NCBI GenBank assembly: GCA_947564735.1
Contig: CANOEC010000003.1
Location: forward strand, 62,001 to 126,000
Source of the DNA: an uncultured Lachnospiraceae bacterium
Lineage (GTDB): Bacteria; Bacillota; Clostridia; Lachnospirales; Lachnospiraceae
Reading direction: 5' to 3'
DNA: 64,000 bases
The notes under the pieces: generated by a model
Told to the model about the DNA's origin: nothing
What the model saw: the letters and a program-made list of their open reading frames with translations, nothing else
Database searches by the model: none
Part shown: positions 15,785 through 26,636 of the stretch, piece after piece
Layout: each line of letters opens with the position of its first letter
How positions within the stretch are numbered: the first letter of the stretch is position 1
Made by a program: the position numbers and the translations under genes

Positions 15785-17460
15785 TTTCTATATGCATCAA
15801 ACACACATTTCTTGTTACGGTCCACAAGATACTCCTCCACCTTCACTTTTCCGCCGTTTACGCGCACCGTTATCGCACCGCTTTCCTGCGTCCGGTAAAT
15901 CAGGCAGTCACGTTCTGCAAGCCTCTCTAACAGTTCCTCGTGGGGATGCCCGTACCGGTTATTCCGCCCTGCAGAAATCAAGGCAATGCGCGGATTGACA
16001 GTATCCAGAAAATCTTTTGTTGTGGAATTTCTGGAACCGTGGTGTGCGACTTTTAGCAAAGTTATGTCAACTGATTCCTTCCATATACTCCCTGCATTCT
16101 CAATATTTCTTATTATCTCTCCATTTTCTTTTTTCTCTGTCTTCCTTATTTCCTCCAACACCATTTTTTCTCCTTCCCCCTCCAAATCTCCTGTAAACAG
16201 TGCCGTAAACGTTCCGTAAGTAAGATACAGTACGGTGGAATATGCATTGCTGTCTTCCATATTCCATCCTTTTTGCGGATGCAGGCAGGTTAACATAACT
16301 TTTCCGCATTGCAGGATATCTCCTTTTCCGATATAACACACCGGTATGCCGCTTTGCATGGCAAGATACTCAAGTTCATGGTACTGTTCATTTCTTCCCG
16401 CCGCTCCCACATCGGGCAGATAGAGCACTCCAATAGAAATACCGTTTGTTTTCGTCTCATTTAGCAGCGTACAGATACCGCTTACGTGGTCACCGTCTGG
16501 GTGGGTGACTACCACGGCATCCAGATGCGATACGCCTTCATGTTTCAAATAGGGCGTCATCTGGTAGTCGGCCACCTTCTGGTTGTCCGAGCTTCCGCCG
16601 TCAATCAGCATGTGGATACCACTGTCTTCCGTCAGATAAATACAGTCTCCCTGTCCCACATCTACCATCGTAATCTCAAGACCCTTTGGCAGCCTGATGG
16701 TCAATACAAGCAGTGCACAGGCTGCCCCCTGCCAGAAATACAGTTTCGGAAGCCGGCTGTTCCAGACAAGTAATGCCGCTAAGATTCCGAAGAACAGCAG
16801 AATCTGCCACGGCTGCGGACAACCGGTAATCCACTTGCTGCCGGGAAGGCTAAGACCTATGTGGCAAAGCTTTTCATATATTTCCAACATAAAATGCACC
16901 GGATACGCAGTGACAGCGCCCATAGGCAAAAAAAGCGCAGCAAGCCCCATACTGAGCAGCCCGCCCAGCAGCAAAAACGTCATGCAGGGAATCACAAGGA
17001 GATTCAACAGTACCGAATAAGGCGGAAATTCATAATAAAAGCCAAGATAAACCGGCAGCGTGGCAATGGATATGGCGGCGCCGGACACTGCCATCTTCTC
17101 CAGTCTGCCGCGTCCAAACAAATTCTCCGATGCCGCCGGCAGAAAGATTCCGATGCCGCAGATGGCGCCAAAGGAAAAGAGAAACCCGCTATGCTGCAAA
17201 TATAGCGGCTGCTGCACAAGCGCCATAAGCGCCGCCACAGTCAGAGCAGTCAATAAATCATAGGTTCTTCCTATCATTTTTGCAAAAAGATGCATAACAA
17301 ACATAATATACGCCCGAAAAATGGAAATTCCCATGCCCGTCATCGTACCATAACAATACATGAACCCTGCACACAGAATGATGTTAACTGTATCCGGAAC
17401 CCGCATTTTATGCAGAAGCTTATGAAAACCCATTCCAATAACCGACAAATGCAGACCCGT
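15781..17460 (-). pseudogene. comEC: comEC, 5' part removed by prophage insertion
   Basis: The remaining frame encodes the C-terminal two thirds of ComEC, the membrane channel for DNA uptake in competence: the multi-helix Competence domain, then a metallo-beta-lactamase-like domain (TMVDVGQGDC, VVTHPDGDHVSG, KVAHHGSRNS). Full ComEC is about 750-850 residues; here at most about 560 remain and the N-terminal OB-fold region is absent. Upstream, the frame reads TQTGLHLSVIGM and stops at a TAG (17470-17472), where intact ComEC would have an AISGLHLS-like motif. A TTG at 17448 is the only near start. The missing half should lie beyond the right end of the prophage. Confidence 0.85.
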
Positions 17461-21409: not shown

Positions 21410-21595
21410 TTAATCATCATCCTCACCAAACCGGCTGCCAGAGCCGCCCATTGTCATATGCATTTCTCCCGTCTCCATGTCCATAGCCATACTGTTTCCA
21501 AAGGACTGCATCAGATGCCCTTCGGAATCCATCATCATGTTATCCGACATTTTCATGAGAAAATCCCCATCTTCCATATCAAATATGCTACTCAT
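21410..21595 (-). CDS. methionine-rich small acidic protein
   Basis: 61 residues with about 15 Met and many Asp/Glu, containing two loose repeats of an MxxSDNMMMDSEGHLM-like unit. Similar Met-rich small proteins accompany clostridial mobile elements, but I know no function. It overlaps the HNH gene upstream by 8 bp. Confidence 0.6.
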   Translation of the reverse strand: MSSIFDMEDGDFLMKMSDNMMMDSEGHLMQSFGNSMAMDMETGEMHMTMGGSGSRFGEDDD

Positions 21596-21938
21596 ACCCT
21601 GCCTCCAATTCTACAATCCTGTAACCGAAACCTTCTGCTTTCCGCACCTGATACAGACTGCCGTCTATCCAAAATGTAATCCTGTCCCCTGCTTCTTCAT
21701 TAGTCGCAATGTTCGTGCAGAGCAGATTGACGGCTGCGTTGCTGCCGCCGAATGCCCTCGGCAGTATGTGGTGCAGATTCCATCCGCAGTAAACCCTCTC
21801 TCCGTTTTCGTAAATATAGAAATCAGGATTCCCATATCCGTCCCTGCACATCAAGTTTCCATGAAAATCCTCTGCATATACGGCTAATCCGTAACACATC
21901 TCCCACAGCTTCAGAGCGTTTTTCCTGCATATTTTCAT
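21588..21938 (-). CDS. HNH endonuclease domain protein
   Basis: 116 residues. The HNH core reads WNLHHILPRAFGGSNAAVNL then CTNIATNEEAGD, with paired His and a conserved Asn. The N-terminus is helical and Cys-containing. It is separate from the packaging-module HNH at 45,969-46,328. Role unknown: homing-type or accessory nuclease. Confidence 0.75.
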   Translation of the reverse strand: MKICRKNALKLWEMCYGLAVYAEDFHGNLMCRDGYGNPDFYIYENGERVYCGWNLHHILPRAFGGSNAAVNLLCTNIATNEEAGDRITFWIDGSLYQVRKAEGFGYRIVELEAGYE

Positions 21939-21965
21939 TTCCCGTCACCTCCAATCCTGACCAAA

Positions 21966-22320
21966 ATAAAAACCTATACACTATGTATGTACAGGCTCAT
22001 AGGTCAGTTATTGGGCTTTACACACATAGCAACCCAGACATATGCCTTGCATATATCTGAAGTAAGTTATGGTGTAAAGCCGGGAAACAATAATTTACGC
22101 ACCGAAGGTTTATCATTACTATCTCAAAGAATCACCCATGATTTCTGTCCCTTGATAGTTTCCGGGGTTTACAAAACACTATACACTGCCAAGCTTTCTG
22201 ACAGTTCCAATGCATGCCGCAGCTTTCAATTACAGCATGGTCTGCAAATCAAGCTGATTCAGTACATTGTAAAACTGCACTTATGCAATGTATTTACCCA
22301 CTAAATTTACCATATAAATG
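21966..22320 (-). ncRNA. candidate structured noncoding RNA ending in a terminator
   Basis: 355 nt without a credible ORF, downstream of the lysis genes. On the minus strand consecutive stems can be drawn by eye: TACATTG/CAATGTA (22292-22286 with 22269-22263), CAGCTT/AAGCTG (22256-51, 22225-20), ACTGTC/GGCAGT (22205-00, 22190-85), CTATC/GATAG (22158-54, 22123-19) with an inner AGAA/TTCT arm, AATGAT/ATTATT (22117-12, 22094-89) capped by CTTCGG, long-range GGAAAC/GTTTCC (22163-58, 22088-83), and a 68-nt hairpin with GGCTTTACAC/GTGTAAAGCC (22081-72, 22023-14). It ends with ACCTAT/ATAGGT plus T5. It might be a known phage ncRNA class such as ROOL or GOLLD; I cannot match it. Confidence 0.6.
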
Positions 22321-22326
22321 GTTTTT

Positions 22327-22488
22327 TTACAAGTCCTCCTGCTGATTTTCATTCTCACTGCAAATATACATGATGCAGTTGACAATATCCTTATCGCTCT
22401 GACCGTGCGCCCTCATCCATTCGATCAGCCGTGGAAATATAAAATTGGGGATTTCCTGCTGTTCCATTTCAATATCCAAGTTCTCCAT
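22327..22488 (-). CDS. short acidic protein at the end of the lysis cassette
   Basis: 53 residues beginning MENLDIEMEQQEIPNF, with AAGGGG 6 nt before the ATG. It has an amphipathic helix (IFPRLIEWMRAHGQSDKDI), two Cys-containing turns and an acidic tail. It follows the endolysin gene by 62 bp. Strong start signal and biased composition favour a real gene; function unknown. Confidence 0.6.
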   Translation of the reverse strand: MENLDIEMEQQEIPNFIFPRLIEWMRAHGQSDKDIVNCIMYICSENENQQEDL

Positions 22489-22550: not shown

Positions 22551-24005
22551 TTATATCAGCTGGATGTTGTAATTTCTACTTAATTTCAAAATTTCATTAA
22601 CACATTTCTGCACCGCAGAATAATCATATCCTGCTGCCGTCAGTCTCTGTTCCCGTTCTGCACCATTGCCCCACTTTCCCTGAATGACTTCTCTGGCAAG
22701 TGTCTCCACGGATTTTTGCTCTGTCTTTCTGCCATAAATTGCAGTGCCGCTTTCATCAAATACAAAATATCCTCTGTGTTCGTCCACACATTTTTTCGCA
22801 TTGGCAAGACTGTGGTATGCTCCAAGCTGTGATCCTGCATCTGTCCATGTCTTTCTGACACGGTACCAGACTTCCTTCTGCTCCGGCTTCGTTTCTGTTT
22901 TTGGAGTGTCTGCTGCTGTCCCGATAATCTTCGCCAGAATATTACATATCTTTCTTCCATAGTCTACTCCGGCTGCCCAGCCTTTCCCTGTCGGATTCTC
23001 TTTCTGACCGAGCCATTCCACATAAGGCGCACATCCTCTTTCCACATACTGAAATCTCGTGTCTACGCACACATTGGCAAGACCATCTGCCGAAGCATAA
23101 GCCTTCAGATGTTGGATCTGCGCCCTGATTCCAAACTGCGGCGTCTCAAAAGAATTCCCTCTCGCACCGCCGCCAGTTGCCCCAAGCCCTGCGAAATTAT
23201 TCTGCCCCGCCTTCACATCTCCCTTAAAAGTAAAGTTCCCCGTTTCAAGGCATGACTGTGCAAAAGCCACATCGCCCCTGACACCTTCTGCCTCTCCCTC
23301 GAAAATATAAATGTCTGCAAGCCCGGCATAGGATACCGCATTCGGATTAACGGAAAGGAGATACTTTTTCATCTGCGCCGCTGTAGCCACAGCCGTTCCC
23401 ATGACAGCGGTCATGCCATCCTCCTTGGCGTTTGAAATACCGTTCATTACCCCCTTTACATCTTTTCGGAAACCGTCCATCGTATATTCCATGCCAAGCT
23501 GTCTCCAAAAATGCTCCGGATCTCCGTGGTTGGATGCAATCCCCCTCTTATGCCCCTCTGCATGGGACACGATAACGCCATCACCGAGCGGATTTAAGGA
23601 GAACTTCCCACAGAGCATAGCAAACAGTTCCACTGCCGCTTTATAGGTTCTCTCCGCCACGGCTTTGGCTTCTGCCGGATTGGAGCAGACAAAAGAAGAT
23701 CCGCCCGTATATTTGATGCCGGACGGCTCACACATTTCTATTCCGATATGGGTATTGTTGCTGCTGCCTCCTCCATGCCAGCCTCTGTGATTCCACGGAA
23801 GCGTCTGATAAACTGTTCCATCATTTCCGTCAATAAATCCATGAACGCATGAGGTGTTATGGCTTTCCCTGTTCCATGAACTGATAAAGGCTGATGCATC
23901 CGGCTGCGGACAGCCCACCGAATGAAGCATCAGCCCTTTGACTGTAATCTTTTCTCCCTTTTTGTAGCAGGGATTGTTTGTCATGATAGATTCTGCCAGT
24001 TTCAC
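22551..24005 (-). CDS. endolysin: amidase plus glucosaminidase
   Basis: 484 residues. Residues about 10-170 are an Amidase_2 (N-acetylmuramoyl-L-alanine amidase) domain with zinc ligands in LMLHSVG and SHAEGHKRG and in the GDPEHFW stretch. Residues about 200-350 are a glucosaminidase domain (FAQSCLETGNF, FAGLGATGG, GIRAQIQHLKAYA). Residues about 375-425 are a small SPOR-like repeat probably binding the wall, and the end is helical. It cuts host peptidoglycan twice during lysis. No signal peptide; export depends on the holin, whose gene overlaps by 4 bp. Confidence 0.93.
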   Translation of the reverse strand: MKLAESIMTNNPCYKKGEKITVKGLMLHSVGCPQPDASAFISSWNRESHNTSCVHGFIDGNDGTVYQTLPWNHRGWHGGGSSNNTHIGIEMCEPSGIKYTGGSSFVCSNPAEAKAVAERTYKAAVELFAMLCGKFSLNPLGDGVIVSHAEGHKRGIASNHGDPEHFWRQLGMEYTMDGFRKDVKGVMNGISNAKEDGMTAVMGTAVATAAQMKKYLLSVNPNAVSYAGLADIYIFEGEAEGVRGDVAFAQSCLETGNFTFKGDVKAGQNNFAGLGATGGGARGNSFETPQFGIRAQIQHLKAYASADGLANVCVDTRFQYVERGCAPYVEWLGQKENPTGKGWAAGVDYGRKICNILAKIIGTAADTPKTETKPEQKEVWYRVRKTWTDAGSQLGAYHSLANAKKCVDEHRGYFVFDESGTAIYGRKTEQKSVETLAREVIQGKWGNGAEREQRLTAAGYDYSAVQKCVNEILKLSRNYNIQLI

Positions 24006-24421
24006 TTTTCTTTCTCCTCTCCGTCAGCCCTGTCATGAAGCTGCTTTAAAATCTCCTTCATCTGTTTGGGAATCGGCAGTCCAAGATGTCCTGCATTTTC
24101 CAGAAGGCTCACACCCTCATTGGAAATATAGAAAAAAATAACCGCCGTCCGAAGCACGCTGCCATTTCCAATCACCTGTCCATCAAGAATGTTTGCAATC
24201 CCTACCAGCAGAAAAATCAGCACCTTCTTTGCGATGCCTCTAAAGCCCACCTCACTGGACAGCTTCTTGTCTGCCACAGCGCACATCACACCCGTGATGT
24301 AATCCGCCATCACGAATGCGATGAGCGCATACAGCAGGCCGTCGCAGCCCCCGAGGAACCAGCCGAGCCATCCCCCTATCATTGTGAAAATAAGTTGAAT
24401 TGTGTTCCAGAATTCCTTCAT
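24002..24421 (-). CDS. phage holin (toxin secretion/phage lysis family)
   Basis: 139 residues with two to three membrane segments (IGGWLGWFLGGCDGLLYALIAF, AKKVLIFLLVGIANIL, TAVIFFYISNEG) and a charged tail, typical of the Phage_holin_4 family. AAGGAGG lies 8 nt before the ATG at 24421. It forms membrane lesions that release the endolysin. Confidence 0.9.
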   Translation of the reverse strand: MKEFWNTIQLIFTMIGGWLGWFLGGCDGLLYALIAFVMADYITGVMCAVADKKLSSEVGFRGIAKKVLIFLLVGIANILDGQVIGNGSVLRTAVIFFYISNEGVSLLENAGHLGLPIPKQMKEILKQLHDRADGEEKEK

Positions 24422-24497
24422 ACTGCATTCCTCCTTTAATTTTTTGTATGAAAAAAGCAAACACGCTTCCGCATCTGCCCTTCCATCTGATATTTTG

Positions 24498-26636
24498 TTA
24501 CACGCACTCCACATAACGGATAAAGGAATACCCATTCCCGTCATTGATCCCGGCTTCGTTGGTGGTCGGATAATATTTCTTATTATAGGTAAATGCAGCC
24601 ACGCCTCCTACATATCCCGATCCTCCTGCCCCTGACTGCCCGCTCATACCATAGTTGCCGCCAAAATAACCGCCGCCTCCTCCTGAATAGCTGTGACTGC
24701 TTCCTGAATAAGACGGTGCGCATCCAAAATTGTCATCTTCGTAACTTCCTGTAGAAATCTGTCTGCCTCCCAATGCCCCGCCGGAACCATCGCCACCCCT
24801 TTCGCCGCCACCGTCACCGCCCTGTTTTTCTTCCCCACTGGAAGTTACACCACCACCTCCGCCGCCGCCAGCCACAATCAGAATTTCCTCTTTCCGATTT
24901 TTATAATTGTTCGCCTTCGAGCTGCTGTTTGACGAGCCAAGCGAACCTGACCTTGTAGTTATGCTTGTGGCACCGCCGCCTCCTGCCCCGTATCCATCGC
25001 TTGAGTTTGAGTACGTATATCCGCTGCCTCCCCCATTAACCCCTGAATAATTGGCCGAAGCAGGTTTCCCGCCATTATAAATATAAATTCGGGTTCCTTT
25101 AGCCATTTCCCTATAGCCTTTGGCATGGCCACCCAGACCCCCCCCCTTCCCGGTCTTTTTATCTTTGCTTACGGCATCTGCCCCCGCGGCTCCCCAAACT
25201 TCAAATTCATAAATGCCATCTGCAGGAATAGTAAATGGAACATAATTAGCCGTATAAGGAAAATCATAGACTGTATCAATCCATTCCGGCACAAGAAAGG
25301 CATCATCATTAAACCTCCCTTTTTCTCCGGGTTTATGGATATCCCCGCCGCTGCTCCATCCGCAGAAAGACATATCCTCCCTCTCATAAGGGCATTCCGG
25401 AATACTGACCTCCGTGCCGTGGATATTGCCATTATTATAAAAGCATTCCGCAGACAGAGTGCTTTCCTTCTTCCCGTCCTTCAGCGTACCGCCGTTCGGA
25501 TACATGGCAATCTCTATATTTCTCTTAAACACTGCATATAATGTAAAATCCTCTTCTCCTTCTACAATGCAGGATTCCAGCACCTTTCCGTCTGCCTCTG
25601 TGTCCATTCTCCACCCCGCAAACGAATATCCTTCCTTAAATGCCTTTGGTACAGAAAGCAAGGCATCCTCATTATCGTCCACATGGCGGGTTATGCTTTC
25701 TCCCATGTCTGTCTGGTAAGTCACGTCCACGCCGTCAGAATAAGCCTTATTAGCCCCCAGATAAATCCTGACTATCTTCCCCGGATTGGAAGCATAATAG
25801 CAGTAGTACATGGTGATATCGCTGTAGTCTTCCAACGCCGCATAATCCTCAAGGCTCATCAGCTTTGTAATAATCCCCTCCGAACTGTCCAAACGTGAAA
25901 AAATGTCATCAATGTTTCCCTGCATATCTCCAATACCACTCTGCACTTCATCCAGTTCTTCCATGATGTTTCTTGCCTGAAACACACAGGTTCCGTCCAC
26001 CACGGTATCCCCAGCCTTTTCAATCCTCGCATAGCCAGAAGGCACAGTCATGGCGGTTTCCCCGGCTTGGATACAGACAAGCATCGCCCATCCGGGCGCA
26101 TTGGCACATCTCGTCATATCTCCGACGCTGTATTCCGCAGAACGGGAAACATTCTCCCGTCCGCTGCCACCACCGATGCCGTCTCCGCTTCCATTGCCAA
26201 TCTTCTGAAAGGTCATCTCAAGCTGGCTGATTTCCGAGGATGTTACACGGAAGGTGGCAAGTTCCATATCATAAACGGAATTATTATAGTTCACATCAGC
26301 GTCCGCCTCCATTCCGGGCAGTTCCCCGTCTGCCACAGTAAGGAGCTGGATTGGCTCATCCGCATTAGACAGATCCATGTGGACATAAAGCCTCCCATAG
26401 AGCCTTTCATCCTTTTCGGCAAGCCGGACATCCACTTCACAGTCGTATATCTCAAAAAACCGTCCCTTCAACAGCCCAAAGCCCTGTGATACCCGCAGGA
26501 CGTTCCCTCTTGCATAAGAAATATTGCAGCCCTTAAAGATTCCATTCATGGGAATAGCGGTCTCATGCATGATGGCATCATTCTGCGGCGTCACCGTGCC
26601 TCCCTTATATGTTTTGAGTACAATATTACCGGCCAT
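24498..26636 (-). CDS. receptor-binding tail-tip protein with InlB-like repeats and a glycine-rich adhesin
   Basis: 712 residues. The N-terminal ~260 probably attach to the tail and form a coiled stalk. Residues about 285-370 resemble bacterial InlB/Flg_new repeats (KEGYSFAGWRMD, FTLYAVFKRN). From about residue 470 a glycine-rich domain follows (FEVWGAAGAD, ILIVAGGGGGGG, GGGGYFGGNYGMSGQSG), as in phage adhesins that use polyglycine loops to bind the host. A G9 run lies at 25,138-25,146 inside the codons for TGKGGGLGG. It follows the tail hub gene with an 11-bp overlap. Confidence 0.82.
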   Translation of the reverse strand: MAGNIVLKTYKGGTVTPQNDAIMHETAIPMNGIFKGCNISYARGNVLRVSQGFGLLKGRFFEIYDCEVDVRLAEKDERLYGRLYVHMDLSNADEPIQLLTVADGELPGMEADADVNYNNSVYDMELATFRVTSSEISQLEMTFQKIGNGSGDGIGGGSGRENVSRSAEYSVGDMTRCANAPGWAMLVCIQAGETAMTVPSGYARIEKAGDTVVDGTCVFQARNIMEELDEVQSGIGDMQGNIDDIFSRLDSSEGIITKLMSLEDYAALEDYSDITMYYCYYASNPGKIVRIYLGANKAYSDGVDVTYQTDMGESITRHVDDNEDALLSVPKAFKEGYSFAGWRMDTEADGKVLESCIVEGEEDFTLYAVFKRNIEIAMYPNGGTLKDGKKESTLSAECFYNNGNIHGTEVSIPECPYEREDMSFCGWSSGGDIHKPGEKGRFNDDAFLVPEWIDTVYDFPYTANYVPFTIPADGIYEFEVWGAAGADAVSKDKKTGKGGGLGGHAKGYREMAKGTRIYIYNGGKPASANYSGVNGGGSGYTYSNSSDGYGAGGGGATSITTRSGSLGSSNSSSKANNYKNRKEEILIVAGGGGGGGVTSSGEEKQGGDGGGERGGDGSGGALGGRQISTGSYEDDNFGCAPSYSGSSHSYSGGGGGYFGGNYGMSGQSGAGGSGYVGGVAAFTYNKKYYPTTNEAGINDGNGYSFIRYVECV
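25138..25146 (-). repeat. homopolymeric G9 tract in the receptor-binding gene
   Basis: Nine consecutive C on the plus strand, G9 in the coding strand, near codon 500 of 712. A one-base slip would remove the glycine-rich adhesin. Confidence 0.9.

Follow-up and report, generated by a model that had tools for sequence, protein, structure and literature searches.

In riboswitch-type transcription attenuators, the strand that closes a junction competes with an antiterminator/terminator pair, and in type III toxin-antitoxin systems of the ToxIN type the RNA carries tandem short repeats. Phages and prophages also harbor ornate RNAs such as ROOL and GOLLD, and HEARO was studied as an RNA of 343 nt that acts with IsrB (PMC12286853, available part). 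In the C. difficile prophage phi027, promoter, noncoding RNA, terminator, ribosome-binding site and protein gene follow one another beside the holin in the RCd22-AbiF system, for which the available part of the source describes a cis action by termination, a trans action by binding of the toxin, and co-transcription by read-through (PMC12373285).

Here we analyzed 64,000 nucleotides of DNA from an uncultured Lachnospiraceae bacterium (GenBank assembly GCA_947564735.1, contig CANOEC010000003.1, positions 62,001 to 126,000; hereafter the window), for which an earlier note, made from the sequence alone, had proposed a large free-standing noncoding RNA in a prophage at positions 21966–22320. We consider it probable, at about 0.68, that this region encodes a transcription attenuator resembling a riboswitch, which would control a mobile HNH cassette, with the leader transcribed together with the HNH-type gene. 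Directly observed beneath this reading are conservation, the covariation of both folds, the position and the gene association. If the family holds, long switch RNAs outside Rfam would sit on a mobile HNH-type gene, and control of the riboswitch kind would reach the cargo of prophages and perhaps defence as well. Given the covariation, compensatory mutants can test the switch directly, with the downstream genes and the signal as concrete targets.

Comparison of the locus with described systems

No Rfam family, ROOL, GOLLD and HEARO included, reached its gathering score in the window, which leaves the likeness to ROOL and GOLLD drawn in the earlier note unsupported. In nine related loci nothing matched the RNA at that score, the sole match being a SAM riboswitch elsewhere in L049, and five further loci gave no match to the RNA at E ≤ 0.05. 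The trpB motif (RF04312) scored 30.2 bits over a hairpin and the terminator, against a gathering score of 59, and was treated as a chance match. The RNA is not described in the literature searched, which comprised the available parts of articles including PMC12286853, PMC8040213 and PMC12373285.

RCd22-AbiF would, by analogy, be the closest working analogue. Both systems lie in a prophage beside a holin and place a noncoding RNA with its own promoter and terminator, here predicted from sequence, ahead of the ribosome-binding site of a protein gene; in contrast, the available part of the source gives RCd22 transcripts of 88–132 nt, two abiF motifs and an Abi_2 protein, whereas the window RNA measures about 350 nt and precedes an HNH-type gene (PMC12373285). 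Because the abiF motif (RF03085) is absent among the Rfam matches of the window, the nine loci and the five loci, and the Abi_2 family has no match in four HNH proteins including that of the window (only weak HNH families matched), we describe the RNA as a riboswitch-like attenuator of a putative new RNA family. Like riboswitch-type attenuators, it has a junction-closing strand that would compete with an antiterminator/terminator pair, and covariation points to a mutually exclusive terminator and antiterminator; unlike them, it carries a sensor domain outside Rfam at gathering score and would control a mobile HNH cassette, not metabolism.

HEARO (omega RNA), which accompanies IscB or IsrB, is likewise a long structured RNA beside an HNH-containing gene, but the window RNA has no Rfam HEARO match, no guide was seen, and the proteins of its family, 104–120 aa long, are presumably too small for the IscB partner domains. 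We regard HEARO as nearer in spirit than ROOL or GOLLD, from which, as they appear in the available part of PMC12286853, the window RNA differs in its tie to a downstream gene (36/38 sources), its terminator/antiterminator pair and the lack of an Rfam match.

A structured minus-strand RNA upstream of an HNH-type gene

Folding of positions 21966–22320 on the minus strand yielded −115.7 kcal/mol (z −4.95, 0/100 shuffles as good), against −80.4 kcal/mol on the plus strand (z −2.26, 1/100), and the predicted leader (21960–22305, minus strand) reached z −5.38. The structured RNA is encoded on the minus strand, contrary to the strand chosen in the earlier note, and belongs with the gene downstream, which encodes the HNH-type protein. 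Several stems, as described there, are confirmed, and so is structure in excess of chance. The long-range GGAAAC/GTTTCC helix was also correctly recognized (22158–22163 with 22083–22088, within a 5' side spanning 22158–22165); it covaries in relatives, with both sides changed in 5/6 pairs. So was the long closing hairpin, which measures 66 nt (22015–22080). The C(UUCG)G loop is present as well, on the minus strand (22102–22108). The supposed terminal T-run, however, is a plus-strand feature (22322–22328) that was not scored as a terminator and overlaps a minus-strand promoter-like site. Although the region was held to contain no ORF, its plus strand has one of 105 aa (21987–22304); it is probably not a gene, because its relatives in L016, L022 and L023 carry stops. 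A plus-strand RNA was rejected on its weaker fold, the lack of a scored terminator and the unconserved ORF.

The genes assigned around the RNA all lie on the minus strand, in the order holin (24002–24544), amidase/CW_7 lysin (22551–24005), a 53-aa ORF (22327–22488), the RNA, the HNH-type gene, a gene for an acidic protein and two serine recombinases. The leader is predicted to span about 350 nt (21945–22297), from a 5' end at GUAA near 22297 to the ribosome-binding site GGAGGTGA (21945–21952), on the basis of fold z value, covariation and a match to R1, a covariance model that covers the final 144 positions and was built from 25 leaders. R1 matches the window at 21940–22079 with 120.7 bits, the window being amongst its own building sequences. 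With the end of the U-run only 10 nt from GGAGGTGA of the HNH-type gene, the RNA is not free-standing as first described; the broader idea of an ornate prophage RNA is supported, as the covariation test suggested in the earlier note came out positive.

Two probable, mutually exclusive folds of the leader

Five minus-strand segments make up the putative switch: strand 0 (GUAAACC, 22166–22172), strand 1 (GCUUUACACC, 22071–22080), strand 2 (22015–22030), strand 3 (21981–21995) and strand 4 (21973–21981). Comparison of the leaders supports two mutually exclusive folds, an OFF fold in which strands 1 and 2 would form a hairpin and strands 3 and 4 the terminator, and an ON fold in which strand 0 would pair with strand 1 to close a junction and strand 2 with strand 3 as antiterminator. 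RNAalifold, run with no structure supplied on 13 type-A leaders, returned the ON arrangement, in which 0:1 bounds a junction containing four additional helices and 2:3 is paired as well, and eight type-C leaders yielded the OFF arrangement with hairpin 1:2, the terminator and an outer helix around it. At strand 0, all 30 leaders listed have a GUNAN motif whose spacing from strand 1 is characteristic of the subtype.

In the 13-leader alignment, 97.5% of cells are paired in the ON fold, and both sides changed in 20/43 pairs, compared to 10.2 in shuffles; the covariation score of 0.419 (0.223 in shuffles) was reached by 0/500 shuffles and fell to at most 0.098 when partners were slid by 1–3 columns, some of the excess being expected because the structure was predicted from the same alignment. 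Across 25 leaders, 89.0% of cells are paired in the hairpin, the terminator and the outer helix of the OFF fold, which together score 0.298 versus 0.182 (0/500), and the antiterminator is 86.2% paired with 0.304 versus 0.222 (0/500), figures to be read with the caveat of the covariation tool that related sequences can beat shuffles without structure. Measures that resist kinship are weaker: both-sides-changed pairs number 11 versus 8.0 for OFF (37/500) and 5 versus 3.5 for the antiterminator (40/500), and the pair types were equaled in 58/500 and 206/500 shuffles, respectively. Two of five measures for the antiterminator are not clearly above shuffles, and slid by two columns it still pairs 68–75% of cells because its strands alternate purine and pyrimidine. 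Its cleanest sign is the pair between alignment columns 70 and 114 (UA in 15 leaders, CG in 8, other in 2): in the structures as drawn, column 70 forms a bulge of hairpin 1:2, and column 114 is not part of the terminator stem.

Strands 0, 1 and 2 moreover change jointly in some leaders. Five type-B leaders read GUAAC / CGUUACAC / GUGUAACG, compared to GUAAA / CUUUACAC / GUGUAAAG in the window, and L036 carries a different joint change, GUGAA / CUUCACAC / GUGUGGAG. Amongst the 34 leaders attempted, near-copies included, the antiterminator run measures at least 11 nt in 26, 10 nt in one, and 8–9 nt at another place in three; four were not parsed. In type C, the pairing of strand 0 with strand 1 comprises only 4 pairs in 6/8 leaders. 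In a pseudoknot-free energy model of the whole leader, ON lies above OFF in 7/7 leaders tested, by 10.9 kcal/mol in the window and 5.9–14.7 kcal/mol overall, and when the sequence is taken only as far as strand 3, ON is no worse than OFF in 2/6 leaders (L028, L049). In the leader of L043 (3851–4001), strands 2 and 3 are kept but hairpin 1:2 seems to be largely missing, which may reflect either a naturally constitutive variant or an error of assembly.

According to the attenuator model, a minus-strand leader of about 350 nt would be transcribed together with the HNH-type gene. By default, strand 1 would pair with strand 2, the 3:4 terminator would form, and transcription would end before the HNH-type gene. 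A signal, which could be a metabolite, a protein, an RNA or an infection state, would stabilize the upstream junction such that the closing strand 0 captures strand 1; strand 2, thus freed, would pair with strand 3 and block the terminator, and the HNH-type and acidic proteins would be made. Transcription, the direction of switching and the existence of a signal are what we infer from the observations above.

Transcription signals and possible leader peptides

The promoter-like site of the window (22304–22332, minus strand) consists of TTGTAA (22327–22332), a 17-nt spacer and TAAATT (22304–22309); by our own count its hexamers match 8/12 positions, no better than shuffles. A promoter scan of the window named a different 8-of-12 site, and a second scan, of 21900–22420, found no promoter reaching its threshold. 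Relatives carry strong promoter-like sites at the corresponding place, with TTGACA-N17-TATAAT in L017, L021, L025, L029 and L048; a promoter-like score of at least 10 is reached in 18/29 leaders (in L045 at another place), mostly with GUAA or GUAG shortly after. At the other end of the leader, the sole terminator-like site within 21900–22420 is on the minus strand at 21998–21970. Sequence and terminator scan place the predicted intrinsic terminator at 21963–21981, formed by strand 4 and a U-run (21963–21972). It is surrounded by the outer helix (21957–22009; 22002–22007 with 21957–21962), in which both sides changed in 6/6 pairs across 25 leaders.

The geometry of alternative pairings 1:2, 2:3 and 3:4 is identical to that of ribosome-dependent attenuation, in which translation of a leader peptide would decide between the folds. 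In 10/30 leaders, all of types A and C (L024, L025, L027, L028, L029, L038, L044, L047, L051, L053), a TTG or ATG with a Shine-Dalgarno-like site at −152 to −160 indeed reads into strand 1. No such ORF is listed, however, in 14/30 leaders, the window and L022 amongst them, and five type-B leaders have none preceded by a Shine-Dalgarno site at −152 to −160. Where the ORFs are shared, they vary between 16 and 50 codons and overlap conserved structure, which could itself explain the shared letters; the longest minus-strand ORF wholly inside the window leader (21945–22297) has 32 aa, and the upstream junction itself covaries. Control by a translated leader peptide thus appears quite improbable to us.

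A candidate long-range helix and a possible role in trans

The 5' part of the leader contains a candidate long-range, pseudoknot-like helix between 22236–22241 and a loop strand at 22134–22141, the latter inside hairpin 22119–22158. With strands picked by eye in 20 leaders, 14 distinct strand pairs pair at 96/112 positions, compared to a mean of 77.7 and a maximum of 90 in 10,000 permutations. An automatic search placed the partner elsewhere in 7/13 type-A leaders, the window included, and only 3/29 of its hits were matched by at most 10 of 200 shuffles.

A long 5' domain with such a helix would suit an RNA that acts as a partner in trans, where the terminated leader binds the HNH nuclease to restrain or guide it and the terminator only sets the ratio of RNA to mRNA, modeled on type III toxin-antitoxin systems or on RCd22-AbiF. 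The near-constant company of HNH-type gene and RNA and the gene order beside a holin, identical to that in the available part of the RCd22-AbiF source (PMC12373285), speak for this arrangement. We nevertheless consider it rather unlikely as the main function: in L065 and L104 the gene behind the RNA is a small one unrelated to HNH, the conserved alternative of 0:1 and 2:3 would be superfluous for a trans role, and the alignments show by eye no hypervariable guide-like stretch. Tandem short repeats were likewise not seen by eye in the leader alignments. On the attenuator reading, the terminated transcript would build up, so that the leader could still bind the HNH-type protein in addition, in the manner of RCd22 and AbiF.

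Association of the leader with the HNH-type gene

Searches with the HNH protein identified 33 loci in genome contigs whose titles name Lachnospiraceae, Oscillospiraceae, Ruminococcaceae, Erysipelotrichaceae, Atopobiaceae and other groups; relatives with the same upstream RNA come from Lachnospiraceae, Oscillospiraceae and Erysipelotrichaceae as well as from a single Atopobiaceae MAG, and viral contigs contribute L016–L018 and L021. Amongst 38 sources found through HNH, R1 matches directly upstream of the gene in 36; the two misses are L052, whose HNH lacks the N-terminus, and L054, whose sequence begins within HNH. L040 is truncated by the edge of its contig. Since 25 of the 36 were used to build R1 and several others are near-copies, the informative cases are L036 (8.8e-25), L043, L045, L046, L055, L065 and L104. 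Three of them have the RNA without an intact HNH-type gene: in L065 and L104 it precedes a different small gene, and it is therefore regarded as a portable leader, and in L055 (1500–1730) only 28 aa of the HNH C-terminus remain behind the R1-matching 3' domain, which points to loss of HNH with the 3' part of the leader kept.

In a DNA search of 99 relatives, 397 family and 78 genus genomes, G015 and G045 were the only clear relatives besides the window, recovered from the 99 as well as from the 78; a further 12 hits in the family set were weak (E 8e-5 to 0.01), one of which, G213, turned out to carry the RNA with an HNH remnant. No match was found in a phage collection by direct DNA search, and the HNH protein searches added one unannotated phage record and one distant record of a plasmid collection. 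RNA pattern 1 matched 11 stretches in viral contigs. HNH is present in four of them, L016 and the closely similar L058, L063 and L066; in L065 another small protein follows immediately, and the other six lack the features of the family. In the 397 family genomes it hit the window and G213, which retains just 28 aa of HNH; the reversed control pattern gave one hit. Pattern 2 matched 31 viral stretches, of which two have HNH (L077 and L079, the contigs of L017 and L018) and the other 29 neither a strong HNH match nor, by eye, family features. Across 291 class genomes, R1 hit 20 at E ≤ 0.01; besides the window, only G543 was accepted (1.6e-9), where, as in L065, the RNA precedes a gene we call NPNN after the repeats in its small protein. 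For the other 18 genomes, the eight neighborhoods read (L105–L112) resemble a generic hairpin with a ribosome-binding site, some lying before genes identified by eye as ribosomal-protein genes, and were rejected.

A free-standing ornate phage RNA of the ROOL/GOLLD sort, next to HNH by accident, would account for the prophage location and complex fold. It has become very improbable given that the RNA lies directly upstream of HNH in 36/38 sources (themselves found through HNH), that immediately behind every accepted hit found through the RNA lies HNH, a remnant of it or a different small gene, and that no Rfam family matches.

The HNH-type protein and its downstream genes

The HNH-type protein of the window has 116 aa (21588–21938, minus strand), and H56, H57, N71 and N80 are invariant in an alignment of 28 sequences; we take this H-N-N pattern to resemble that of the Cas9 HNH. 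Pfam HNH families remain below cut-off in all four HNH proteins searched, including that of the window (best 20.3 vs 21.4), PDB matches are weak (a Cas9 at E 0.21, with unrelated proteins ranked above), and the AlphaFold model is poor (pLDDT 53) and unusable. The dN/dS values of 0.045–0.23 in 11/13 pairs (dS was not computable in two) indicate purifying selection, and the protein may be an active nuclease.

An ORF for an acidic protein of 61 aa (14 D/E, 2 K/R; 21410–21595, minus strand) without a Pfam match follows. Downstream of HNH in 36 loci, a sequence pattern, which may miss some genes, detected the acidic gene in 20, the NPNN gene in one and neither in 15. In L063, the NPNN gene comes after HNH. 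In the Dorea phage PV036443 (L125, 4001–4414), an NPNN-type gene and, by eye, an acidic-protein-like gene lie between tail genes and are annotated as hypothetical; an R1 search of L125 found no leader. A distant HNH relative, a 318-aa ORF at 856–1812 of L099, has no R1 match in its locus.

Prophage setting and mobility of the unit

The C-terminal part of ComEC is encoded at 15826–17460 of the window and its N-terminal part about 54 kb away at G000:C3:133638–134354. A prophage thus probably disrupts comEC, with the RNA close to its recombinase end, and the split suggests comEC as the attachment gene of a serine-recombinase phage. L022 (MAG UBA7054) has an uninterrupted comEC, behind which come the RNA, HNH, the acidic gene, a remnant resembling the recombinase C-terminus and a HolA-like gene, the last two recognized by eye. 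Between copies in differing contexts (L022/L016, L022/L023, L042/L051, L038/L044, L022/window), similarity sets in at the promoter, at about −400, and stops around the end of the acidic gene or before it; only in L022/window does it continue, reaching 21235. Near-identical copies (L025/L029/L033/L034 and L028/L030/L032) share longer flanks and seemingly represent one locus each.

The neighbors of the unit include terminases (L018, L042), serine recombinases (L035, L045), a Tn916-type integrase (L027), a LexA-like peptidase (L017) and a housekeeping PPDK gene (L030). Judged from these boundaries and neighborhoods, the RNA-HNH unit seems to behave as a moron-like mobile cassette; because neither an empty site nor a duplication was established, autonomous mobility is a presumption. 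One could speculate further that the whole forms an RNA-controlled nuclease cassette of a new class, sensing phage attack or prophage fate, with HNH silenced by termination and released by antitermination, the terminated RNA also binding the nuclease, and serving as a portable defence or addiction module across Clostridia and beyond, a scenario that we regard as doubtful. In L051 (4689–6308), the RNA-HNH unit adjoins a gene for a SIR2-like/TPR protein. Elsewhere in the prophage of the window, positions 24498–26636 encode a protein that combines an ALK/LTK glycine-rich domain with a Listeria-Bacteroides repeat.
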